A DNA stretch of 64,000 nt, taken from assembly GCF_000233715.2 (NCBI RefSeq), contig NC_021184.1, positions 2,132,001 to 2,196,000 on the forward strand. Direction: 5' to 3'. Origin of the DNA: Desulfoscipio gibsoniae DSM 7213 (GTDB lineage: Bacteria; Bacillota; Desulfotomaculia; Desulfotomaculales; Desulfallaceae). Both the position numbers and the translations under genes were made by a program. The notes beneath the pieces were generated by a model, which was not told the DNA's origin, did not search any database, and saw nothing but the letters and a program-made list of their open reading frames with translations. Shown piece after piece: positions 1 to 64,000 of this stretch (positions within the stretch are counted from its first letter, which is position 1; every line of letters begins with the position of its first letter).

Positions 1-395
1 CATTGTTCGAGCATTATTTCATTGTTGGCGATTGGATATTTTCCTTGTATTACTTTAACATTCATATTTTCAGCAAAAGCTTCATCCAGCGCCCCAAGTT
101 TGCAAGGGATTTCGTTTATGTTTCCATCTCCAAGGTCCTTCCATCTTCCCGAATTCCGAACATCAATGCGGTTTCTAATGACAGACATTTCTTCTTCGGA
201 AGCATCTATAATGGCAAGATGATAATTTCCATAATCATGAATCACCTGCAGCTTTTCAAACTGCAGAAAAACATCCAGCATGGAGAATATTCCGGTGATA
301 AGAGCAACCGATAGCGCCACACTAATCATAGCCAATCTTGTCTTCTTTTTATGTGCCGACAGGTATTGGGGAGCAAGTGCCAGGTAATTCTTCAT
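1..395 (-). CDS. FtsX/MacB-type ABC transporter permease, N-terminal part (cut by window edge)
   Basis: The minus strand reads openly from an ATG at 395 to the window edge, giving about 131 residues beginning [21 protein letters not shown] basic N-terminus, a first membrane segment at about residues 22-44, and then a hydrophilic region match the start of FtsX/MacB-like permeases, where an extracytoplasmic MacB-like domain follows the first helix. The start codon overlaps the stop of the preceding ATPase gene (ATGA), and a GGAGGTGG ribosome site lies just upstream, so the two are translationally coupled. Together they should form an exporter or a peptide/antibiotic-resistance transporter. The substrate cannot be told. 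The C-terminal helices lie outside the window. Confidence 0.85.
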   Translation of the reverse strand, partial: MKNYLALAPQYLSAHKKKTRLAMISVALSVALITGIFSMLDVFLQFEKLQVIHDYGNYHLAIIDASEEEMSVIRNRIDVRNSGRWKDLGDGNINEIPCKLGALDEAFAENMNVKVIQGKYPIANNEIMLEQ

Positions 396-1084
396 CTTTG
401 GCCACCTCCAAGCTCGGTGACCACTCCATCCTTAACTTGAAAGACTCTGTCTGCAAAAGAAGCATAGTTCTCATTGTGCGTAATCATAATCAGGGTCTGC
501 TGATACCTTTCCACAGACAACTTCATCAGGTCAATTACATCTCTGCTGTTTTTACTATCAAGGTTTCCCGTTGGCTCGTCGGCCAAAATGATTGCAGGCT
601 TGGCTGCAAGGGCGCGTCCAATAGCCACACGCTGCTGCTGTCCTCCTGAAAGTTGACTGGGCAGGTGGTGCTTTCTTTCCGTCAATCCCAGTGTAAAAAG
701 CAATTCGTCAATATATTGCTGATCTGGTTTTTTATGATCCAACAGTAATGGCAAGATTATATTTTCCTCAACATTTAATTCAGGAACAAGATTATATGCT
801 TGAAAAATGAATCCTATATTACGCCTGCGAAATACCGCCAGCGCCTCTTCCTGCATATTAAAAACATCCCGGCCATCTATAAAGACCTTGCCCGATGTTG
901 GCATGTCCAATGCTCCAAGCAGATTTAAGAGTGTACTTTTCCCCGAGCCCGACGGTCCAACAATGGAAACAAATTCACCTTTGGAAACAGAAAAGGACAC
1001 ATCCTTTAAGGCTTCCACCTTTGTTTCGCCTTTTCCATAAGTTTTTGATAAATTCTCAGTCCTTAGAATCTCCAATCTTCCCAC
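392..1084 (-). CDS. ABC transporter ATP-binding protein (MacB/LolD type)
   Basis: 230-residue ATPase of the MacB/LolD/SalX class, which energises FtsX-like permeases. Visible motifs: Walker [10 protein letters not shown] at 43-51, Q-loop Gln95, signature LSGGQQQR at 145-152, Walker B IILADEP at 165-171, the family-typical GNLDS D-loop, and switch His203. Length is normal for the family. It is directly upstream of the permease gene with a 4-base overlap and downstream of a histidine kinase/response regulator pair, an arrangement typical of antimicrobial-peptide or cell-envelope stress modules in Firmicutes. Function in efflux or detoxification is inferred from this context. Confidence 0.93.
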
Positions 1085-1154
1085 CCCGGTTATTATTCTA
1101 GTCGTTCATTTAGAACAAACATAGAATAACCAGCCAACCTTACTCTAAGATGAA

Positions 1155-2408
1155 TTAAACCTTACAATTTTGTAAGTTTGGCAAATGCACAGTGAATTTT
1201 GTTCCCTTTTCAATTGTACTTTCTACGGATATAAACCCGCCATGCATTTCAATAATTGTTTTCGCCAAACTAAGCCCTATGCCGGTACCTTGCTTGTTTT
1301 GCGAAAACCTACTTCTGTAAAATCTTTTAAATATATGATTGATATCATCAGGGTGAATACCTTCCCCATTATCTTCGAAAGTTATTTTTATGATCAATGG
1401 CGTTTCTTCAATTAGGACACTGATGTGGTTCCCTGCCCTTGTATGTTCCACAGCGTTTTTAAATAAATTACTCAGGGCTTCCAACATCCATTCCCTGTCG
1501 CAGAGATATGCCACCTTACAGTCCGATTTTACCGCCCAGGTTTTTTGTTCTTTGGACAGCCTGGTTTCAAAACTTTCCGCCACCTGTTTTATAATATCAT
1601 TTAAAATATGGTTACTTTTATTAAGCTCAATGATCCCTGCATCCAATTTGGCCATCTTTAAAAGGTTGGCTATCAGGGTTTGCATACGTTCAAGTTCTTT
1701 TTCGCTTTTATCTAAAAACTTTACTATCACGTCATTATCTGTATTTTCATTTCTCATGATATCAGTATACATAGTAAGGGCAGACAGGGGAGTTTTTAGC
1801 TGATGAGACACATTAGTTAAAATATCCTTTAAAAAAACCCTGTTTTGTTTTTCTTTTTCGATATGGGTATAGAGTGATGCAGTCAATAAATTAATTGATG
1901 CCGCCAATTTAGACAAATTTCCTTCTTCATTATCGTCAAGCCTGGTGGAAATTTCGCCATTCATTATTTTGCTGATGTCATTGTTATACTGATCTATTTT
2001 TCTGTAATGGGTTTTTAAAAATAAATAAACAACTAGCAATATTACAAGAACAAACATACTGGAAAATATCAAGTTAGTTGCCTTGTTTGATCTATAGAAC
2101 TTGTCCACTTGAGGTATTAAATGCAATTGGATACCATTTTTGTATCCGGATTGTTCCAGCAGAGCTTTACCTGTTTCAAGATGATCCGGTAACTTATCGG
2201 CCGTGAATGCCTCTTGGATATCAACAGCCAGTTCCGGGTGTTTTTGCTTCAAGTACCCCGCAATCTCATAGTCATGTACGATCATTTCATTTCTAAAATG
2301 GACGGCCTGTATGTAGGCAATGACCTGAAAGAGTATAACGCCGAGGAATAATACCAGCGAAAATAATATTAAAAAATTTTTTGCTTCCCTATTAACTAGT
2401 AAACTCAT
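1155..2408 (-). CDS. Sensor histidine kinase of an ABC-transporter-linked two-component system
   Basis: 417-residue membrane kinase. Two membrane helices (about 11-33 and 112-132) enclose an extracytoplasmic sensor of about 78 residues; a HAMP-like linker follows (about 133-185). The H-box is NVSHQLKTPLSAL with phospho-acceptor His202; the N-box (NLFKNAVEHT), G1 (DNGEGI) and G2 (GTGIGLSLAK) ATP-binding motifs are intact. The sizeable outer domain separates it from the short-loop BceS kinases that sense through their transporter; it looks more like a PhoR/VanS-type sensor. It lies 10 bases downstream of the response regulator gene and 70 bases upstream of the ABC ATPase. The ligand is unknown. 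Confidence 0.92.
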   Translation of the reverse strand: MSLLVNREAKNFLILFSLVLFLGVILFQVIAYIQAVHFRNEMIVHDYEIAGYLKQKHPELAVDIQEAFTADKLPDHLETGKALLEQSGYKNGIQLHLIPQVDKFYRSNKATNLIFSSMFVLVILLVVYLFLKTHYRKIDQYNNDISKIMNGEISTRLDDNEEGNLSKLAASINLLTASLYTHIEKEKQNRVFLKDILTNVSHQLKTPLSALTMYTDIMRNENTDNDVIVKFLDKSEKELERMQTLIANLLKMAKLDAGIIELNKSNHILNDIIKQVAESFETRLSKEQKTWAVKSDCKVAYLCDREWMLEALSNLFKNAVEHTRAGNHISVLIEETPLIIKITFEDNGEGIHPDDINHIFKRFYRSRFSQNKQGTGIGLSLAKTIIEMHGGFISVESTIEKGTKFTVHLPNLQNCKV

Positions 2409-2418
2409 AAAAAACCCC

Positions 2419-3102
2419 TCATAAAATGTTCCATTTATATCCCATTCCCCTTATTGTAACTAAAAATGAGGGGTGCTTTGGGAAATCCTCTATTTTTTCC
2501 CGGAGCCTGCTGATATAAACAGCCAGAGTATTATCATCAATAAAGCTTTCACGACAGTCCCATAACTTTTGCATTATTTGCTCTTTTGATAATATAATCC
2601 TTGGATTTTGCATAAAAAGACATAACAATCTGTATTCGACAGTGGTAAGTTCTATTTCCAAGCCATTTTTTATCACTCTTCCTTCCAAAAGCTTAACTAT
2701 AATCCCATTGGAAATTAACTCCGTTGACAGCTGCTTTTGGGGGTTCGACCTTCTTAATGCAGCATTTATTCTCGATATAAGTTCATTTAGCCTAAATGGC
2801 TTTGTTATATAATCGTCTCCTCCTATATCCAGACCCATGACAATATTTACTTCCTCATCGGAAGCTGTTAGGAAAATTATTGGTATATTTGATGTTTGCC
2901 TAACTGATTTACATATGTCAAAGCCGCTGCCATCAGGAAGCATTAAATCCAATATAATTAGATTGTACTCATTTTGATTTAAACATTTTTCGGCTTCCTT
3001 TACAGTCCTTGTAATCGTGACATCAAAGTTATGCTTGGAAAGTGAGAATTTTAAGCCTTCAATTAAGCTTAAATCATCTTCCACTAATAATATTTTTCGC
3101 AT
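2419..3102 (-). CDS. OmpR/PhoB-family response regulator
   Basis: 227-residue regulator: receiver domain (1-120) with acidic pocket Glu8-Asp9-Asp10, phospho-acceptor Asp52 in LDLMLPDGSG, Thr79 and Lys101 (ITKPF), followed by a winged-helix DNA-binding domain (about 130-227) ending in the wHTH pattern DNTLAVYISRLREKIE. It heads a presumed operon with the kinase and the ABC exporter, so it probably controls that exporter. A hairpin with a downstream T-run lies 85-115 bases upstream of the start (separate entry) and may attenuate the operon. Confidence 0.93.
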   Translation of the reverse strand: MRKILLVEDDLSLIEGLKFSLSKHNFDVTITRTVKEAEKCLNQNEYNLIILDLMLPDGSGFDICKSVRQTSNIPIIFLTASDEEVNIVMGLDIGGDDYITKPFRLNELISRINAALRRSNPQKQLSTELISNGIIVKLLEGRVIKNGLEIELTTVEYRLLCLFMQNPRIILSKEQIMQKLWDCRESFIDDNTLAVYISRLREKIEDFPKHPSFLVTIRGMGYKWNIL

Positions 3103-3187
3103 ATTTAGTCTCCCTTTTTTTTTACTTATTTTTAATTATTAAGCCCTATCGAACATTTTGCAAGGCTTTGTCTTACCGAAACAAAAA

Positions 3188-3219
3188 ATATAAGCTTCAC
3201 CCGAAAGGTGAGGCTTATA
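3188..3219 (-). terminator. Hairpin with T-run in the leader of the response-regulator operon
   Basis: TATAAGCTTCACC (3189-3201) can pair with GGTGAGGCTTATA (3207-3219), 12 of 13 positions Watson-Crick and one G-T, with a 5-base loop. On the minus strand the stem is followed by TTTTTTGT (3188-3181), the layout of an intrinsic terminator. No minus-strand gene lies just upstream, so it sits in the 5' leader of the regulator gene at 3102. It may be an attenuator. The rest of 3103-3436 shows no gene. Confidence 0.45.
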
Positions 3220-3436
3220 AACTAAACTCACTTTTATGCTATTGAGCAATGCTACAAGAATCAGCTGATACCATAATGGTCAACGGTCAAAACTTTTACC
3301 TACCAAACCCCGGTAATGTTTCTTTATCCAGAAGATACGCAAGGCCTCTGAATCAATAAGCCTTTTTACCATTATTGGCACAACTTCCCTTGGGTTTACA
3401 TATTATGGGTAAAATGAAAGATTTGGAGGTCGTAGT

Positions 3437-3928
3437 ATGAGCCAGGACCCAACAACATCCGCCATACCCCCGGCGCCAACAGGATATAAATTGCAAATTC
3501 CGCAAATGCCTATATTAGGTCCCCCGGACTTCGGATTGTTTTTGCGCAACCTTTATCAGGCCATTGTCGGCGAAGCAACCGCTATTGATTTTTATTATCG
3601 ACTGTTAAGGGAAGCCCCGAATGAACTTCACCGTGAATTCATTGATCATGCTTATAGAGATGAGATGCAGCATTTGGAGGCGTTCACGAGATTATACTGT
3701 TATTTCACCGGCCAAAAACCACAATATACTGTAACTCCCGTTCAATACCGGAGTTACCGGGAAGGCCTGTTGCTTGCCATGAAAGATGAACTGGAAGCAG
3801 CCGAAACCTATCAAGAAATTATTCTTTCGAGCACGGATCAGCTGGTGAGAGATACCTTTTTCATGGCTATGACTGATGAGATGGAGCACGCCACCAGGTT
3901 CGGGTTCCTTTATAATTCTTTGAGATAA
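3437..3928 (+). CDS. Ferritin-like (rubrerythrin-type fold) di-iron protein
   Basis: 163-residue protein, start ATG with GGAGG seven bases upstream. After a Pro-rich tail (1-33) there is a four-helix bundle with metal-ligand spacing of the ferritin-like superfamily: Glu46, the pair E76-x-x-H79 (DEMQH), acidic residues at 118-123 and the pair E148-x-x-H151 (DEMEH). There is no rubredoxin Cys4 module, so it is not a full rubrerythrin. Similar short proteins occur in spore-forming Firmicutes, some linked to spores, but the exact role (peroxide or iron handling, or a spore component) is not shown by the sequence. It is a single gene, convergent with the YigZ gene. Confidence 0.75.
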   Translation: MSQDPTTSAIPPAPTGYKLQIPQMPILGPPDFGLFLRNLYQAIVGEATAIDFYYRLLREAPNELHREFIDHAYRDEMQHLEAFTRLYCYFTGQKPQYTVTPVQYRSYREGLLLAMKDELEAAETYQEIILSSTDQLVRDTFFMAMTDEMEHATRFGFLYNSLR

Positions 3929-3990
3929 TCGGATTAGAATCCTGATAAATTTCCCTTTGCACTTCATGGCCATAATTGGGCATTTTATAA

Positions 3991-4010
3991 GCCCCCTTTA
4001 TTTTGGGGGA
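3991..4010. terminator. Hairpin between convergent genes
   Basis: CCCCC (3992-3996) and GGGGG (4005-4009) flank an A/T-rich loop between the ferritin-like gene (plus) and the YigZ gene (minus). Only weak T-rich sequence follows on either strand, so terminator function is tentative. Confidence 0.35.
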
Positions 4011-4033
4011 CATTTATCCGATTTCTAACTACT

Positions 4034-4648
4034 TTATATATAACAAAACTCCCCTTCCGCCAGCACCGCCTGCCCTCCGGTTACCTCAAGCAATTGTTTT
4101 GCCACTCTGTTTATATCGTCGGGTTCCAGGTATACTTTAATTATTACCTGCTGCTCATAGGTTATTTCCGCTTGTTTAGCGCCGGCTTTTTCCAGTTCAT
4201 TTTTTACCATGCCCAGCCAGGTGTAATCGATAGTTATGTACAGCTCTTTGTATAATAGCCGGGTGGCAACGCCGGCGGTTTCGATTCCTTTCAGGGCCGC
4301 TTCCCGGTAGGCCCGGACCAGGCCGCCGGCCCCCAGCATGATGCCGCCGAAGTATCTGGTGACCACGATAATAATCCGGGTCAATGACTTTTGCATGATC
4401 AGGTCCAGCACCGGCTTTCCGGCTGTGCCGCCGGGTTCGCCGTCGTCGCTGTAACGCTGTGTCCGTTCATTGATTACGTAGGCGAACACGTTATGATTGG
4501 CCTGGCTGTGTTTTTCTCTAATGGTTGATAAGAAACGGCCGGCCTCTTCTGCATCATTTATCGGGGAGGCTGAGGTGATGAAACGGGATTTTTTGATGAT
4601 TGTTTCCACCACCACCGGCTCATTAATGGTTCGATAGCTGTTTTTCAT
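4034..4648 (-). CDS. YigZ/IMPACT-family protein
   Basis: 204 residues from the ATG at 4648, chosen over the longer frame (ATG at 4699) because AGGAG lies 8 bases before it and the longer start has no ribosome site. The N-terminal half carries the UPF0029 (YigZ/IMPACT) pattern: KKSRFITSASP, then a segment with RYSDDGEPGGTAGKPVL, and VVTRYFGGIMLGAGGLVRAY. The C-terminal about 70 residues form the small alpha-beta DUF1949-type domain. Eukaryotic IMPACT modulates the GCN2 kinase; the bacterial role is poorly defined. It follows the polymerase IV gene and may be transcribed with it. Confidence 0.88.
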   Translation of the reverse strand: MKNSYRTINEPVVVETIIKKSRFITSASPINDAEEAGRFLSTIREKHSQANHNVFAYVINERTQRYSDDGEPGGTAGKPVLDLIMQKSLTRIIIVVTRYFGGIMLGAGGLVRAYREAALKGIETAGVATRLLYKELYITIDYTWLGMVKNELEKAGAKQAEITYEQQVIIKVYLEPDDINRVAKQLLEVTGGQAVLAEGEFCYI

Positions 4649-57347: not shown

Positions 57348-57636
57348 CTTCTCCTTGCCCCTCTTGCTTCTTTGCCGGTCATAGGTTATTTTACGGGTGG
57401 CCATATGATCAAACAACTGGCTCAATAGTTTGGTCCGCCTCCTTTATTTTTAATTGAATAACCAAGTATTACCTAATAGTTTCCATAGGCGCTTACATTT
57501 GTTAATAAAAAAAGTTTACTATTGATTAACTACGCTTGCAAGCTGAATCACTAGTCTTTAAAAAAAATTTTAGATGGTAATTCTTCTTAACTGATTATTT
57601 TTTTTAAGTAATTCATATTTACCATTTAGGTATAAA

Positions 57637-57690
57637 AATAATAAACAGGCCAGAAGCTATAGCCTCTAGCCTGTTTATTATTTTTATTGT
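57637..57690. terminator. Strong terminator of the formate dehydrogenase operon
   Basis: AATAATAAACAGGC (57637-57650) pairs perfectly with GCCTGTTTATTATT (57669-57682), with an inner stem. On the minus strand TTTTTATA follows, 78 bases after the fdhA stop; TTTATTG follows on the plus strand. Confidence 0.85.
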
Positions 57691-57760
57691 GTAATTGCAC
57701 AACTGCTCATTCCATCTTTGGCAAAGATACGCAAGTATTTGTGCATTTTTTGAAGATCAA

Positions 57761-60454
57761 TTAAACCGCCTTTTCCACTTTCACAGCGCATACCTTCAGT
57801 TCCGGTATCTTGGCCACAGGGTCTTTTGCCGGGTTGGTAAGCTTGTTGATAGCCACCGCCGGGAAGTGGAAAGATGTAAATACCAGCCCCTGGGGCACCA
57901 CATCTGTGACGCGTACCGCTACTTCCACCTGGCCGCGGCGAGAGGTTACCCGTACTTTATCTCCGTCAACTATGCCCAGGGCGGCGGCGTCTGCCTGGTT
58001 AATTTCCAGGTATTCAGTACCGTAGTGCACTTCCAGTGCGCCGGTACGCTGGGTCATGGTGCCTGTGTGGTAGTGGAAATGCCGCCGCCCGGTGCTCAGC
58101 ACCAGCGGGTAGTCGGTATCAGGCATTTCCGCCGGTGGAATATATTCCACCGGGTTAAATTTACCCAGACCCCGGGAAAACTTGTCCTTGTGCAGGTATT
58201 TTGTACCCGGGTGCTCGGCGTTGGGACAGGGCCACTGGATGCCGCCCTGCTCCAACCGGGCATAGGATATGCCTGCATAGGACGGGGTCAGGGAAGCTAT
58301 TTCATCAAATATGTCCGAGGTAGTGGGATACTGCATGGGATAGCCCATAGCCGTGGCCACGGCACAGATAATCTGCCAGTCCGCCCGGGCGTTGTACACC
58401 GGGTCGATGGCCTTGCGCACCCGCTGTACCCGGCGCTCGGTATTGCTGAAGGTGCCGTCTTTTTCGGCATAGCTGGCTGCGGGCAGTACCACATCGGCCA
58501 GGGCTGCCGTTTCAGTGAGGAAGATATCCTGCACCACCAAAAAGTCCAGCTTGCCCAGGGCGTGGGCTACGTGGTCGCTGTCGGGATCGGACAGCACAGG
58601 GTTTTCGCCCATGATGTACATGGCTTTTACTTCACCCGTTCCGGCTTTGTCCAGCATATCTCCCACGGTCAAGCCGGGCTGGGCGGGTAGTTCCGTCACA
58701 TTCCAGGCTTTAGCGAACTTGGCCCGGTTGTTATCCACTGTCACAGCCTGATAGCCCGTGAATACGTTGGGCAAGGCGCCCATGTCGCAGGCCCCCTGCA
58801 CGTTGTTTTGGCCTCGCAGTGGGTTGACGCCGCTGCTTTCTTTGCCGATATGTCCACACAGCATGGCCAGGTTGGCCACGGCAAATACGTTGTGGGTGCC
58901 ACAAATGTGCTGGGTGATACCCATTGTATATAATATGGTGGCATTTTGCGCCCGGGCATAGCCCCGGGCTACTTCCCGTATAGTGTCCGCAGCAATACCC
59001 GTAATTTGCTCGGCATATTCCGGGGTGTACTTAACCACAGTATCTTTAAGGGCTTCGAAGTCTTCGGTTCGATTGGCCACGAAATCTTTATTCCATAACT
59101 CCTCAGCAATAATGACATTGGCCAGAGCATTGAGCAGTGCTATATCGGAGCCCGACTTTAGCTGCATGTGCACGTTGGCCAGCTCTGCCATCTCGGTGCG
59201 CCGCGGGTCCGCCACCACCAGGGTTGCACCGCAGCGTTTCGCCTTTTTGGCTTTCAGGCTGATAATGGGGTGCGATTCCGTGGTATTAGTGCCGATGGCC
59301 AGAATAAAGTCAGCCCCGGCTATTTCATCAATACTGTTGGTCATTGCCCCGCTCCCAAATGCATTCGCCAGACCGGCGACGGTGGGAGCGTGTCAGAGAC
59401 GGGCGCAGTGGTCGATACTGTTGGTACCGAGTACCGCGCGGGTGAATTTCTGCAGCAGATAGTTCTCTTCATTGGTACACCTGGCCGAGCTGAGCACCGC
59501 CAGCGATTCGCTACCGTGCTGCTCCTTTACCTGTCCCAGTTTAGCGGCCACCAAGCCAATGGCCTCATCCCAGGAGGCTTCCACAAATACGCCGTCCTTT
59601 TTAATGAGCGGTGTGGTCAGGCGGTCGGGGTGATGAATAAACCCATAGCCGAAGCGGCCCTTGACGCACAGTGCCCGGCCATTGACATCGCCGTCGCAGG
59701 AGGTGACCCCCACTACTTTATTGTCCTTGACGTTAAGTTCAAAACTGCAGCCTGTACCACAGTACGGGCAGGTGGTTTTAACCTTTTGCACTTCCCAGGT
59801 TCGGGCCGCGGCACGCAGTCCTTTTTCCTGCAGTGCACCCACCGGACATACCGCTACGCAGTTGCCGCAAAAAACGCATTCAGATGCCGAAAGGGGCACG
59901 TCCATAGCAGGGGTGATTTTGGCGTCAAATCCCCGGTAGGCAAAGTCTACGATGCTCTTGCCCTGAATTTCGGCGCAGGCACGCACACATTTGCCGCACA
60001 ATATACATTTATTCATATCCCTTACGATGAAGGGGTTATCGTCCTCCAGTGGATAGCTGTGCTTTTCACCTTCAAAGGGCTCAGTTTTTACGCCGTACAT
60101 ATAGGCGTAATCCTGCAGCCGGCAGTCCCCGTTTTTGCCGCAGGTGAGGCAGTCCATCGGGTGGTTGGCCAGCATTAGTTCAAGTATGACTTTCCTGGCT
60201 TCCTGTACCGCAGGTGAATCAGCGTGTACCACCATGCCATCCGTGGCCTCGGTGACACAGGAGGCAGGTAAATTACGCATGCCAGGTATTTCAACCACGC
60301 ACATCCGGCAGGCACCAAACTTGGTAAGCTCCGGGTCGTGGCAAAAGGTGGGTATAAACACCCCTGCCTGGCGGGCGGCCTCCAGCACGGTGGTCCCTTT
60401 GGGAACGGTTACGGATATGCCGTTAATTGTTAATGTAACTTCCGCCACCGTCAA
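57761..60454 (-). CDS. fdhA: NAD-linked formate dehydrogenase, selenocysteine catalytic subunit
   Basis: 897 residues from TTG 60454 (after AAGGAGG) to 57761, reading through an in-frame TGA at 59395-59393 as selenocysteine 354 in DHCARL-U-HAPTVAGLA. N-terminal NuoG-like part: [2Fe-2S] Cys near 38, 49, 52 and 66, a HPMDCLTC-type cluster, and two [4Fe-4S] motifs (CILCGKCVRAC, CVFCGNCVAVC). The molybdopterin part begins with CPYCGTGCSFEL and ends with the dinucleotide-binding domain. It oxidises formate or reduces CO2 at a molybdenum/tungsten bis-pterin. Upstream NuoE/NuoF-like genes give NAD(H) coupling, possibly electron-bifurcating. Confidence 0.95.
59351..59389 (-). promoter_or_regulatory. 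SECIS-like stem-loop for fdhA
   Basis: Directly after the TGA on the minus strand. Outer arms GCTCCCA (59389-59383) and TGGGAGC (59357-59351), inner CGCC (59378-59375) and GGCG (59369-59366), and apical loop GGTCT. The GGTCT loop is the same as that in the E. coli fdhF SECIS, from memory. It is inside the coding sequence, as in bacteria. Confidence 0.85.
59393..59395 (-). other. Selenocysteine codon (in-frame TGA) of fdhA
   Basis: The TGA lies in CTC TGA CAC GCT, coding L-U-H-A. Sequence continues in frame on both sides with matching formate dehydrogenase residues for over 350 residues before and over 540 after, so this is recoding and not a frameshift or broken gene. Confidence 0.95.
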
Positions 60455-60477
60455 GTATCCCTCCTTCCCCAGTGTTA

Positions 60478-61398
60478 TCACTTAGTCAATTTAGATAATA
60501 TATCTTCTAAGCCCAGGGCCTCGGCCCAGGACACTTCCACAAACTCGCCATCCTTTTTAAGCTGCGGGGCTGCCGGTTCATCCAGGTATTTCAGCTCCAG
60601 TCCCAAACGCCCTTTTAGGCACAGGGGACGGCCGCTGCCAGGCTCTTTGGGCACCACACCGATGTTTTGGCCATTTTTGCTGAGCACCTCGAATGTGCAG
60701 CCACTGTCACAAAAAGTGCAGGTGACCTCCTGACGGGACATTTCCCAGGTCCGCCCTTTACCGGCCAGCGGCTTCCATGTGAGTGCGCCTACGGGGCACA
60801 CCGTGACGCAGCGGCCACAATATACGCAGTCGGATTCGCCCAGGGGGGTGTCCATGGCGGTAACGATTTTGGTGCCAAAACCCCGGTATCCGAAATCAAT
60901 AACGCTGCGCTCGGCTATGGCGTTGCAGGTACGCACGCACCGGCCGCACAGTATGCATTTATTGGCATCCCGAATGATATATGGGTTGGAATCGTCCAGC
61001 GGGTAGTCTTTGCGCTCACCTGTGAACCCGGACTCCTTAACGCCATAGCGGAATGCGTAGTCCTGCAGCCGGCAGTCGCCGTTGCGATCACAGGTCAGGC
61101 AGTCCTGCGGGTGGTTGGCCAGCAGCAGTTCCAGTATGGTTTTACGGGCTTCTACTACTGCAGGCGATTCAGTAAATACCTGCATGCCCTCGGTGCACTC
61201 AGTGACGCAGGATGCGGGCAGGTTGCGCATGCCCGGTATTTCTACCACGCAGATGCGGCAGGCACCAAAGCGCGGTATGGCGGGATCATGACACAGCGTG
61301 GGTATAAATATGCCTGCCTGCCGGGCCGCGTCCAGCACAGTGGTGCCTTTGGATACTTTTATGTTAATACCGTTGATGGTCAGGGATACGTAGGACAT
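60478..61398 (-). CDS. Iron-sulfur protein: truncated N-terminal copy of FdhA
   Basis: 306 residues from ATG 61398, preceded by AGGAGGG. It matches the first about 330 residues of the next gene almost in full: [2Fe-2S] (FGACRICVVEIPGMRNLPASC), HPQDCLTC, [4Fe-4S] motifs CILCGRCVRTC and CVYCGRCVTVC, the CTFCDSGCTFEV motif of the catalytic domain, and SWAEALGLEDIL. It stops just before the place of the active-site Sec. So it carries four or five clusters without a pterin active site. It could be an electron-relay or NuoG-like subunit. It ends 23 bases before the fdhA start. Confidence 0.85.
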   Translation of the reverse strand: MSYVSLTINGINIKVSKGTTVLDAARQAGIFIPTLCHDPAIPRFGACRICVVEIPGMRNLPASCVTECTEGMQVFTESPAVVEARKTILELLLANHPQDCLTCDRNGDCRLQDYAFRYGVKESGFTGERKDYPLDDSNPYIIRDANKCILCGRCVRTCNAIAERSVIDFGYRGFGTKIVTAMDTPLGESDCVYCGRCVTVCPVGALTWKPLAGKGRTWEMSRQEVTCTFCDSGCTFEVLSKNGQNIGVVPKEPGSGRPLCLKGRLGLELKYLDEPAAPQLKKDGEFVEVSWAEALGLEDILSKLTK

Positions 61399-61596
61399 TC
61401 TCTTTTCCCTCCTTTTTGCGAAAGAGTAGGTTCTAAGGCTACTATAACGCATGAAAACAGGCAGTTGGATTATCGGTGGGTAACTGTCGTGTTAATCGGA
61501 TCAATTAAGCGCAAATGTCTAAATGAACCGAAAAATTATAAGATAACCACCAGTTAACTCGTTAGTTGTACGACTAAACCCACACCGGCTGCAAGC

Positions 61597-63549
61597 TTAC
61601 GCTTTATAAATTGCATCAAATTTACAGCCCAGCAGACAAGAACCGCACTTGATGCACTTGGTGGCATCGATAACGTGAGGCTCTTTCTTCTCGCCTGTAA
61701 TGGCCCCGGCCGGGCAGTTCTTGGCGCACTTGCCGCAGCCTTTACATTTTTCGGGGTCAATTTTGAATACCAATAGGGCACTGCAGGCCCCGGCGGGACA
61801 GCGCTTGTCCTGAATATGAGCAATGTACTCGTCCTTGAAGTAACGCATGGTGGATAAAATGGGGTTGGGGCAGGTCTGGCCCAGCCCGCACAAAGCAGTA
61901 TTTTTAACCACTCGGCCAAGGCGTTCCAGGGTATCCAAATCCTCCATTTTACCTTCGCCATCGCAGATACGGGTCAGAATTTCCAGCATGCGCTTGGTGC
62001 CTTCCCGGCAGGGAGTACACTTACCGCAGGACTCGGACTGGGTAAAGGTAAGGAAGAACTTGGCCACGTCCACCATACAGGTGGTTTCATCCATTACCAC
62101 CAAGCCCCCGGAACCCATCATAGCCCCGGCAGCGGTGAGGGAATCATAGTCCACTGGCAGGTCCAGGTTTTCTTCGGGGATACAGCCACCGGAAGGTCCG
62201 CCTATCTGCACGGCTTTAAATTTTTTGCCGTTTTGAATGCCGCCGCCAATGGTGAAGATAATGTCCCTTAAGGTCATCCCCATGGGTACTTCCACCAGGC
62301 CGGTGTTGTTCACTTTACCGGTCAATGCGAAAATCTTGGTGCCCTTGCTCTTTTCAGTGCCCAGCTTGGCGTAGTTTTCACCGCCGTTGCGCAGTATATA
62401 GGGCACGTTGGCATAGGTTTCCACGTTATTCAGGTTGGTGGGTTTGCCCCATAGACCGCTTTGAGCCGGAAAGGGCGGCCTTACCCTGGGCATGCCGCGG
62501 TTGCCTTCGATGGAGGTGAGCAGCGCGGTCTCCTCCCCGCATACAAACGCACCGGCACCGGCTTTAATTTTAATATGGAAGTTAAATCCAGAATTCAATA
62601 TGTTATCACCCAGTATGCCGTATTGTTCGGCCTGGGCAATGGCGATTTTCAAACGCTCAATAGCCAGGGGATACTCGGCCCGCACGTAAATATAGCCCTC
62701 ATCGGCACCTACCGCGTAACCGCAAATCATCATGCCTTCCAGTACGGCGTGGGGGTCGCCCTCCAGCACGCTGCGGTCCATAAAGGCACCCGGGTCGCCT
62801 TCGTCAGCGTTACAGACAACGTACTTCTTATCGCCCTGTGCCTGGCGTACAAAGCCCCACTTCATGCCGGTGGGGAATCCGGCACCGCCGCGGCCGCGCA
62901 GGCCCGACTTTTTCACATCCTCAATGACTTCTTCTGGAGTCATTTCAAACAGTGCCTTCACAAAACCTGCATAGCCGTCATTGGCAATGTATTCGCCTAC
63001 ATCCTCGGGGTTGATATGACCGCAATTGTGTAGCACGAGGCGCTGTTGTTTAGCGTAAAAGGGCACGTCATTATAAGTTTTGGACAGCTCGCCGGTGGTG
63101 TGGTCTTTGTAGAGCAACCGCTCCACCACCTGGCCGCCCACCAGGTTTTGCTCCACTATTTCAGGCACATCGGTATCTTGTACCCGTACGTAAAAAGTCT
63201 TGTCGGGTTCCACAATCATTAACGGGCCTTGCTCGCAAAAACCATGGCAGCCTGTGATGGTGATCTTCACTTTGTCAGTGAGGTTATGCTTCTGCAGTTC
63301 TTCCTTTAAAACATCCACCAGTTTTTTAGAACCGGAGGAGGTGCAGCCTGTACCGGCACAAATAAGTATGTTTTTCTTATCAGAACCTACCGGAAGGTGT
63401 ATATTAGCCAGTAACTCCTGCCGTTTTTGCCGGCAGGCTGCGTCGTCATGGCAGATAGGGCCTTCTTTGATGCACTTGATGAAGTCCCGGCAGGGATTTT
63501 GTGGTTCGTGGGTGCATTTGTCACAGCACTTGTCCAATAGATTGTTCAA
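61597..63549 (-). CDS. NuoF/HydB-like NADH-oxidising subunit with N- and C-terminal ferredoxin domains
   Basis: 650 residues. N-terminal thioredoxin-like [2Fe-2S] domain (about 55-150; CAGTGCTSSGS and GCHGFCEQGP), NADH/FMN core (GLRGRGGAGFPTGMKWGF, CNADEGDPGAF, GAGAFVCGEETALL), the [4Fe-4S] site ESCGKCTPCREGTKRM with CGLGQTCPN, and two C-terminal [4Fe-4S] motifs (CKGCGKCAKNCPAGAI, CIKCGSCLLGCKFDAI). This is the HydB/NfnF-like type found in bifurcating hydrogenases and formate dehydrogenases of anaerobes. It couples the catalytic subunits to NAD(H) and possibly ferredoxin. Cys-rich N-terminal residues 1-40 may bind a further cluster. Confidence 0.93.
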   Translation of the reverse strand: MNNLLDKCCDKCTHEPQNPCRDFIKCIKEGPICHDDAACRQKRQELLANIHLPVGSDKKNILICAGTGCTSSGSKKLVDVLKEELQKHNLTDKVKITITGCHGFCEQGPLMIVEPDKTFYVRVQDTDVPEIVEQNLVGGQVVERLLYKDHTTGELSKTYNDVPFYAKQQRLVLHNCGHINPEDVGEYIANDGYAGFVKALFEMTPEEVIEDVKKSGLRGRGGAGFPTGMKWGFVRQAQGDKKYVVCNADEGDPGAFMDRSVLEGDPHAVLEGMMICGYAVGADEGYIYVRAEYPLAIERLKIAIAQAEQYGILGDNILNSGFNFHIKIKAGAGAFVCGEETALLTSIEGNRGMPRVRPPFPAQSGLWGKPTNLNNVETYANVPYILRNGGENYAKLGTEKSKGTKIFALTGKVNNTGLVEVPMGMTLRDIIFTIGGGIQNGKKFKAVQIGGPSGGCIPEENLDLPVDYDSLTAAGAMMGSGGLVVMDETTCMVDVAKFFLTFTQSESCGKCTPCREGTKRMLEILTRICDGEGKMEDLDTLERLGRVVKNTALCGLGQTCPNPILSTMRYFKDEYIAHIQDKRCPAGACSALLVFKIDPEKCKGCGKCAKNCPAGAITGEKKEPHVIDATKCIKCGSCLLGCKFDAIYKA

Positions 63550-63565: not shown

Positions 63566-64000
63566 CTACTCGTATTTTTTAACTATGGCTACGGCTTTGT
63601 CCGGTGTTAAACGGCCGTGGGTGTCGTCATTGACCATCATCACTGGGGCAAGCCCGCAGGCACCCAGGCAAGCCACGGTTTCCAGCGTATAGCGCAGATC
63701 CTCGGTGCTTTCATTGCGGCCTACGCCCAAATCGGTGGATACAGCGTCAAATACTTTGGCGGCACCCCGTACGTGGCAGGCTGTACCCTGGCACATGCGG
63801 ATAATGTTGCGTCCCCTGGGTTTCAGGTGAAACTGGGAATAAAAGGTGGCCACCCCGAAGGTTTTGCTGAAGGGTACACCAATTTCTTGGGAGATTTTTT
63901 TCATTACATCGCCGGGCAGGTAACCGAAAATTTCCTGGGCTTCCTGCAGCAGGGGAATCAAAGCTCCCTTAAAATTCCGGTACTTGTCGAAAACCTCTTG
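63566..64000 (-). CDS. NuoE/HydC-like [2Fe-2S] subunit, 5' end outside the window
   Basis: The frame is open to the right edge, so only the C-terminal about 144 residues are present. Codons before the TTG at 63961 continue the family N-terminus (VFDKYRNFKGALIPLLQEA), so that TTG is not the start. The [2Fe-2S] Cys are in RMCQGTACHVRGA and TVACLGACGLAPVMM. It is the small partner of the NuoF-like protein that follows 16 bases downstream. The operon promoter is beyond the window. Confidence 0.93.
   Translation of the reverse strand, partial: QEVFDKYRNFKGALIPLLQEAQEIFGYLPGDVMKKISQEIGVPFSKTFGVATFYSQFHLKPRGRNIIRMCQGTACHVRGAAKVFDAVSTDLGVGRNESTEDLRYTLETVACLGACGLAPVMMVNDDTHGRLTPDKAVAIVKKYE

Follow-up and report, generated by a model that had tools for sequence, protein, structure and literature searches.

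A probable HylA-type iron-sulfur relay subunit in a predicted electron-bifurcating formate dehydrogenase locus of Desulfoscipio gibsoniae

The described enzyme closest to the locus analysed here is HylABC-FdhF2, described in 2013 for Clostridium (Gottschalkia) acidurici and classed in 2022 as Type 3 Fdh-Bfu (PMC9304861, in the accessible part of that source). The C. acidurici cluster reads fdhF1-fdhF2-hydA-hydB-hydC (Curi_c29370-29410; PMC3519856), and the cofactors given for the enzyme are one FMN, four [2Fe-2S] and eleven [4Fe-4S] clusters (PMC5861303), both according to the excerpts available from these papers. Type 1 Fdh-Bfu (NuoE-NuoF-FdhA, e.g. Carboxydothermus), like the present locus, places a bifurcating NuoF beside FdhA but is devoid of HylA. 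A further analogue is HydA of the NiFe-HydABCSL complex (Acetomicrobium mobile, 7t2r/7t30), which like HylA is a NuoG-like relay without a catalytic site on a bifurcating HydBC. Unlike HylA, it is 692 aa long, has a NiFe hydrogenase as partner and contains an A2-A4-A5 branch called a non-functional remnant in the available portion of PMC8880783, whereas the Fe4S4-module ligands of HylA are invariant. HoxU and the N-terminal part of NuoG are likewise Fe-S relays beside NuoEF-like subunits, but the HoxU chain 5xf9_F aligns with HylA only to residue 221 and NuoG has a full Mo-like domain. The genome paper of D. gibsoniae lists only two formate dehydrogenases (PMC4148979, section 14) and names Desgi_2136-2139 as a possible confurcating formate dehydrogenase (PMC4148979); these are taken to be the four genes discussed below because the NuoF description of Desgi_2138 fits. 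A literature search found no biochemistry of the D. gibsoniae formate dehydrogenase. The same genome has a further Sec-type formate dehydrogenase catalytic gene at C1:3887188-3889257 (L042 6589-9333), without NuoE, NuoF or HylA alongside.

The four-gene locus and its short gene

The window, that is, the whole stretch of 64,000 nucleotides that was analysed, ends in four minus-strand genes in the order NuoE, NuoF, short gene, FdhA, with the following features.

63566..64000, minus strand: NuoE-type 2Fe-2S subunit (HylC, BfuC), cut by the window end
61597..63549, minus strand: NuoF/HydB-type flavoprotein (HylB, BfuB), 650 aa, assigned by domains and residues
61407..61412, minus strand: GGAGGG ribosome-binding site of the short gene, from the sequence
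60478..61398, minus strand: probable HylA (BfuA-type) Fe-S relay subunit, 306 aa, assigned by sequence, Pfam, orthology to C. acidurici HylA and a model with pLDDT 92.4
57761..60454, minus strand: FdhA catalytic subunit, 897 aa, with its own N-terminal Fe-S arm and a Mo/W-bisPGD domain
59393..59395, minus strand: in-frame UGA of FdhA read as selenocysteine, with the same break after DHCAR in relatives
59341..59395, minus strand: hairpin right after the UGA in SECIS-like position, weak (z -1.74; 15 of 200 shuffles fold equally well)
57638..57681, minus strand: terminator-like stem of 20 pairs with a T tail, 3' of FdhA, the probable operon end

FdhA starts with TTG at 60454, preceded by its own GGAGGG, with GTG at 60481 as a possible alternative. 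The SECIS-like hairpin had no Rfam match at the gathering threshold, and a minus-strand scan of 57500-61620 returned no terminator-like site between NuoF and FdhA.

The short gene runs from ATG at 61398 to TGA at 60480-60478 in an intact reading frame. It had been taken in the original prediction for a copy of about 300 FdhA residues that includes the Fe-S motifs and ends before the Sec codon, and both the coordinates and BLASTP agree: 182 of 299 residues (61%) are identical to FdhA of the same window, at an E value of 7e-134 that excludes chance similarity. All 20 Fe-S ligands are present in the protein, as follows.

C36, C47, C50, C64: 2Fe-2S cluster
H96, C100, C103, C109: His-Cys3 4Fe-4S cluster
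C148, C151, C154, C158 and C191, C194, C197, C201: ferredoxin-type 4Fe-4S clusters
C227, C230, C234, C260: Mo-enzyme Fe4S4 module

The last module is recognised as Molybdop_Fe4S4 (PF04879; 26.1 bits, cut-off 22.7), and the protein reaches some 30 residues into the Mo domain, its C-terminus lying about 45 residues before the Sec UGA. On the formate dehydrogenase model TIGR01591 it scores 35.7 bits against a cut-off of 666.25, a value that the C-terminal half of FdhA exceeds alone (670.4 bits); the short gene thus lacks the Mo/W-bisPGD domain and the Sec/Cys residue of a catalytic subunit. The H-cluster domain that marks an [FeFe]-hydrogenase HydA is missing as well, PF02906 matching neither the short gene nor C. 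acidurici HylA. Judged on its ligands, the protein would correspond to a separate BfuA with clusters A1-A5 and no catalytic domain, and FdhA, by TIGR01591 and its Sec codon, is the separate Fdh subunit with the pterin site. The structural model (pLDDT 92.4, pTM 0.87; an earlier one from 26 rows, at pLDDT 65.7, was set aside) aligns over its full length with NuoG/FdhA-type chains, the best fold match being 7t30_A, HydA of NiFe-HydABCSL (Z 28.3, 292 residues, rmsd 3.1, 33% identity). The PDB copy searched held no close relative of HylA, the best match reaching 218 bits with the single sequence and 263 bits with a profile.

The neighbouring NuoF consists of a CCxxC prefix, a thioredoxin-like 2Fe-2S module, an FMN module, an N3-type 4Fe-4S cluster and two C-terminal 4Fe-4S clusters, and NuoE carries the 2Fe-2S ligands C70, C75, C111 and C115. 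Nine PDB chains of HydB/NfnB/StnB type, most of them named bifurcating in titles or papers and one (9mqx_B) grouped by sequence type, match NuoF at 741-953 bits; the next match, a formate dehydrogenase beta subunit, reaches 430 bits, and all others stay at or below that value. Of the three residue criteria for a bifurcating NuoF in the available text of PMC7311640, two are seen here (A255/M257 and GGPSG at 450-454), the position of the third, Phe at T. maritima HydB 367, being without confident placement. H578 and C529 align with His525 and Cys476 of 7t2r_B, which the accessible part of PMC8880783 names as ligands of a special 2Fe-2S cluster. NuoF and NuoE together thus show the make-up of a BfuBC core (FMN, 2Fe-2S, N3, two C-terminal 4Fe-4S clusters and bifurcation-type residues in NuoF, one 2Fe-2S cluster in NuoE), and this bifurcating HydB type of NuoF had been missed when the operon was read as a formate dehydrogenase in the original prediction.

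The C. acidurici genome (G486, locus L192) shows the genes in the published order, fdhF1 (Cys)-fdhF2 (Sec)-HylA (320 aa)-HylB-HylC, and it is on this order, not on an accession, that its HylA is equated with the purified protein. This HylA matches the short gene at 50% identity over 306 aa (312 bits), the window FdhA at 44% (264 bits) and two HydA of the D. gibsoniae genome at 36-38% (151 and 144 bits). It keeps 20 of 20 ligands; PF04879 does not score past 1e-5, its four ligands being present. By these measures the short gene and C. acidurici HylA are orthologues, and their gene order agrees. The motif-counted clusters of the window, as [2Fe-2S]+[4Fe-4S], are 1+0 in NuoE, 1+3 in NuoF, 1+4 in the short gene and 1+4 in FdhA and add up to the published count, a sum of motifs only that leaves aside the NuoF CCxxC prefix and the non-motif fifth NuoF cluster (PMC8880783), seemingly as the published count does in the portions of these sources that are available.

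It is therefore very probable that the short gene is hylA, encoding BfuA of a four-subunit, soluble, Se-dependent electron-bifurcating/confurcating HylABC-FdhF2 of Type 3 Fdh-Bfu. Orthology, gene order, ligands, NuoF type and selection carry this identification at the level of sequence; a physical complex that includes HylA, the electron route and bifurcation in D. gibsoniae would follow from it. The likeness to the C. acidurici enzyme covers gene order, subunit set, HylA orthology, motif-counted cofactors and the Sec-type FdhA. The two differ in the CCxxC prefix of the window NuoF, in the extra Cys-type FdhF1 of C. acidurici and in that the D. gibsoniae enzyme is known from its genes.

Distribution, selection and gene neighbourhoods

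Orthologues of the short gene occur in 25 of 60 relatives besides the own genome, at 62-95% identity, and two of the six other genomes of the genus have one. FdhA is directly next in 23 of these 26 orthologues, a contig end intervenes in one (L035) and FdhA is absent in two (L013, L037). None of the 26 contains internal stops; frame-shifted copies in close relatives had been named beforehand as evidence against the gene. A scan of named genomes, covering the best 80 of 221 stretches (79 loci), recovered the order NuoE-NuoF-short gene-FdhA in Desulfotomaculales, Pelotomaculum, Desulfosporosinus, Thermincola, Carboxydocella, Anaerosalibacter and Tissierellia MAGs; within the same best 80 it was also found in a deltaproteobacterial MAG (L116) and, without NuoE on the contig, in a member of the Geobacteraceae (L112). 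A search for the four-gene order had been proposed as a check on the short gene; orthologues placed between NuoF and FdhA occur in many Bacillota and some deltaproteobacterial MAGs.

Among 126 distinct intact copies, 90 have both NuoF and FdhA as neighbours, nine NuoF only, two FdhA only and ten neither, and in 15 a contig end lies on one side; only copies of intact length (295-335 aa) were admitted to this set, and broken ones would thus be absent from it. In a near-identical set of 126 (295-330 aa), 20 of 20 ligands are kept in all 126. Selection was estimated by the Nei-Gojobori method, and the short gene gave dN/dS values of 0.028 (G000-G001), 0.048 (G000-G006) and 0.047 (G001-G006), i.e. 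0.03-0.05 between congeners. For residues 213-306 the values are 0.023 (with dS at 2.1, saturated) and 0.059; NuoF (0.027, G000-G006) and the FdhA N-part (0.027, G000-G001) serve as comparison. The view that the gene is intact, has a good ribosome site and is no pseudogene holds up on its own GGAGGG, its distribution and these ratios, and a pseudogene or a chance similarity can be dismissed on BLASTP, intact orthologues and dN/dS.

In the congener G006 (L043 7124-11512), NuoE-NuoF-HylA are kept at 92-96% identity (95% for the short gene), a methyltransferase-like gene stands in the place of FdhA, and the single Fdh-alpha match lies about 1.4 Mb away (L044 11015-13702). Together with the G006 ratios, this indicates that the short gene persists even where FdhA is not linked to it. 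HylA without any formate dehydrogenase was not found: an Fdh-alpha match is present in 23 of 23 genome entries with detached or otherwise placed copies, 22 of them above the Fdh-alpha cut-off and one, MAG G604, below it, the 23 including two pairs with the same coordinates that are evidently the same genomes. As judged from its genes, HylA is conserved, carries the ligands of five clusters, is confined to genomes that have FdhA and mostly accompanies a NuoF of bifurcating type.

The bifurcation-type residues of NuoF are found on both sides of this distribution. Where HylA follows NuoF, GGPSG is present in 99 of 99 sequences and the A/M pair in 97 of 99, the other two being too short. Where FdhA follows NuoF with no HylA within 1.2 kb, GGPSG is present in 23 of 23 and the A/M pair in 16, six being too short and one (L051) non-matching; one of these 23 loci (L152) has a HylA further downstream. 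Since BF-type NuoF occurs with and without HylA, HylA is an optional addition to the BF-type NuoF core and is what sets Type 3 apart from Type 1, and the idea of HylA as a mark of bifurcation was discarded. Homologous operons lacking the short gene, which had been named in advance as evidence against it, do exist in form as these 23 loci, but their layout is that of the known Type 1 Fdh-Bfu.

HylA also occurs in other settings. Three genomes of one family have an [FeFe]-HydA, HylA and FdhA clustered with no NuoE or NuoF alongside, at the following loci.

L259 4706-10897: HydA-HylA-FdhA
L260 1344-6819: HydA-HylA-FdhA
L262 1-5051: HydA-HylA-FdhA

In L259 and L262 an ORF of 163-166 aa separates HydA from HylA, and the contig start truncates the HydA of L262. 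L153, which is the L260 locus, has a confirmed H-cluster domain, and the HydA of L259 and L262 were called by BLAST. Of the 22 genomes searched, five have HylA, and the two of these not listed above are cut near HylA by contig ends. These clusters possibly encode a hydrogen-dependent CO2 reductase or a formate-hydrogen lyase with a HylA relay. In the Desulfotomaculaceae MAG L045 (G054; 3-4331), HylA is flanked by rnfC on one side and, across a 165-aa ORF, by a formate/nitrite transporter gene on the other; neither NuoF nor FdhA adjoins it, and the downstream genes are Rnf-subunit-like by look. A single HylA directly follows molybdate ABC transporter genes and a QRPTase-like gene in Desulfosporosinus L145 (2-6930), which L141 and L148 resemble by eye. 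In two Pelotomaculum-like MAGs (L111 4305-6659, L108 5393-7747) a second HylA copy comes after FdhA and is followed by a CbiM-type metal transporter gene, the CbiM being confirmed in L111 only.

Serial or parallel wiring of HylA

In the mechanism considered here, formate would be oxidised at the Mo/W-Sec site of FdhA, and the electrons, carried by the Fe-S clusters in FdhA and HylA, would arrive at the cluster and FMN of NuoF (HylB); at NuoF they would be split between NAD+ and ferredoxin, the reverse reaction forming formate from CO2. That the complex divides electrons between these two acceptors is predicted because NuoF is of the bifurcating HydB type. We infer that HylA is a bound member of the formate dehydrogenase complex, in which it relays electrons between FdhA and NuoF. 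The invariant Fe4S4-module ligands of the 126 HylA sequences speak for a working cluster, although their role could be structural.

The arrangement towards which we lean slightly, and which the literature assumes by analogy to HydABCSL, is serial, FdhA passing electrons to HylA and HylA alone touching NuoF. It is consistent with HydABCSL, in which electrons travel via HydA, the best full-length fold match, to HydB; with the nine of 126 copies in which NuoF-HylA has no adjoining FdhA; and with the position of HylA between NuoF and FdhA in the operon. However, the N-terminal arm of FdhA is itself complete, and in Type 1 layouts FdhA serves NuoF by itself.

These same Type 1 layouts, with FdhA beside the same NuoF type and no HylA, would also suit a rather doubtful alternative with parallel wires, according to which HylA acts as a second FdhA and the two form a hetero-pair, held together at the site through which FdhA or HydA protomers usually pair, with each docking a NuoEF through an identical N-terminal face. 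The clusters of HylA are also those of FdhA, with two of 82 FdhA lacking one ligand, and in Desulfosporosinus the first 150 or so codons of the two genes are homogenised, which fits a shared NuoF face, though tandem neighbours convert anyway. Against this stands the Type 3 scheme in the accessible part of PMC9304861, which draws a serial arrangement with the additional Fdh subunit behind BfuA.

The homogenisation is seen in all six Desulfosporosinus loci, where third-position identity between HylA and FdhA is 0.53-0.63 over codons 1-150 and 0.24-0.35 over codons 151-297 (Fisher p 2.6e-4 to 4.3e-10); on a tree of residues 1-212 the HylA and FdhA of this genus, one row each, fall together at 100/99. 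The raised identity over codons 1-150 is common to own and cross pairs within Desulfosporosinus, which points to one old conversion event. Gene conversion inside a single species is unsupported, as cross pairs are raised equally and the own FdhA is rarely the best match (nine of 66 pairs for codons 1-150, five for codons 151-297).

More tentative still, and on balance improbable, is a composite proposal in which FdhA and HylA would form an asymmetric hetero-pair with equal five-cluster arms on NuoEF, the docking part being matched by occasional conversion and the Mo-side end diverged to CxxC[D/E]xGC from CxxCGxGC, and in which HylA would also wire FdhA to [FeFe]-hydrogenase where NuoEF is lacking.

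Origin of HylA

Most likely, HylA goes back to a single truncation of an FdhA-type protein; it would have retained the wire of five clusters and the beginning of the Mo domain, but not the pterin site. On a tree of about 311 columns, 48 rows of the short gene form one branch and 43 rows of FdhA another (SH-aLRT 87 and 93), and the short-gene clade spans Bacillota and Geobacteraceae. On residues 1-212, nine HydA form one clade (100/97) and HylA groups with FdhA, the HylA and FdhA families being mixed; a single clade of short genes, which this tree does not support, lowers lnL by 42 when forced and is not rejected (AU p 0.131). Residues 213-299, in contrast to this mixing, separate HylA from FdhA at 100/99 (47 rows). 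The trees would fit one origin plus gene conversion, and repeated partial duplication with convergent ends appears less likely.

The two proteins also differ at single residues. The Gly of CxxCGxGC is present in 116 of 116 FdhA and in none of 126 HylA, 113 of which have Asp or Glu instead (CxxC[D/E]xGC). At residue 225, V is found in 106 of 126 HylA and T in all 116 FdhA; at residue 265, 110 of the 126 HylA have L and 15 have I, as against F or Y in all 116 FdhA. Such signatures allow HylA to be told from FdhA in genome annotation.

In the available text of PMC6085437, HylA is a HydA homologue without H-cluster motifs that is nested among HydA. A decayed [FeFe]-hydrogenase as the source of HylA, which would agree with this nesting, is nonetheless very unlikely. 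Joining HylA to HydA on residues 1-212 lowers lnL by 53 at an AU p of 0.081, a value that leaves the tree tolerant of this origin, and it is therefore domain content that carries the argument for a truncated FdhA. Past residue 210, HylA continues into the Mo-enzyme Fe4S4 module and the first residues of the Mo domain; with the best-matching [FeFe]-HydA of the PDB it aligns over 209 columns, whereas NuoG/FdhA-type chains align over the full length, the free tree sets the nine HydA apart, and the bit scores favour FdhA. A recent local tandem duplication with the short gene as its decaying by-product, to which only the adjacent paralogue lends colour, can practically be dismissed on the single clade across Bacillota and Geobacteraceae on the 311-column tree, the distribution, dN/dS of 0.03-0.05 that extends to the congener with unlinked FdhA, and ligands kept in 126 of 126 copies of a set filtered for intact length.

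Of the dedicated electron-relay subunit from a partial FdhA duplication that was originally envisaged, the Fe-S subunit and its apparent character of a truncated FdhA-type protein are supported; the subunit is, however, not new but the known HylA. HylA as a truncated FdhA was not found in a literature search of CC-licensed PMC papers, which is no proof of its absence in print, and the analysis argues for an origin of HylA other than the printed one, namely from a truncated FdhA-type protein and not simply from a hydrogenase without its H-cluster. The D. gibsoniae locus is thereby placed in a characterised enzyme class, and two FdhA-like arms that may share one bifurcating core present a testable structural question.
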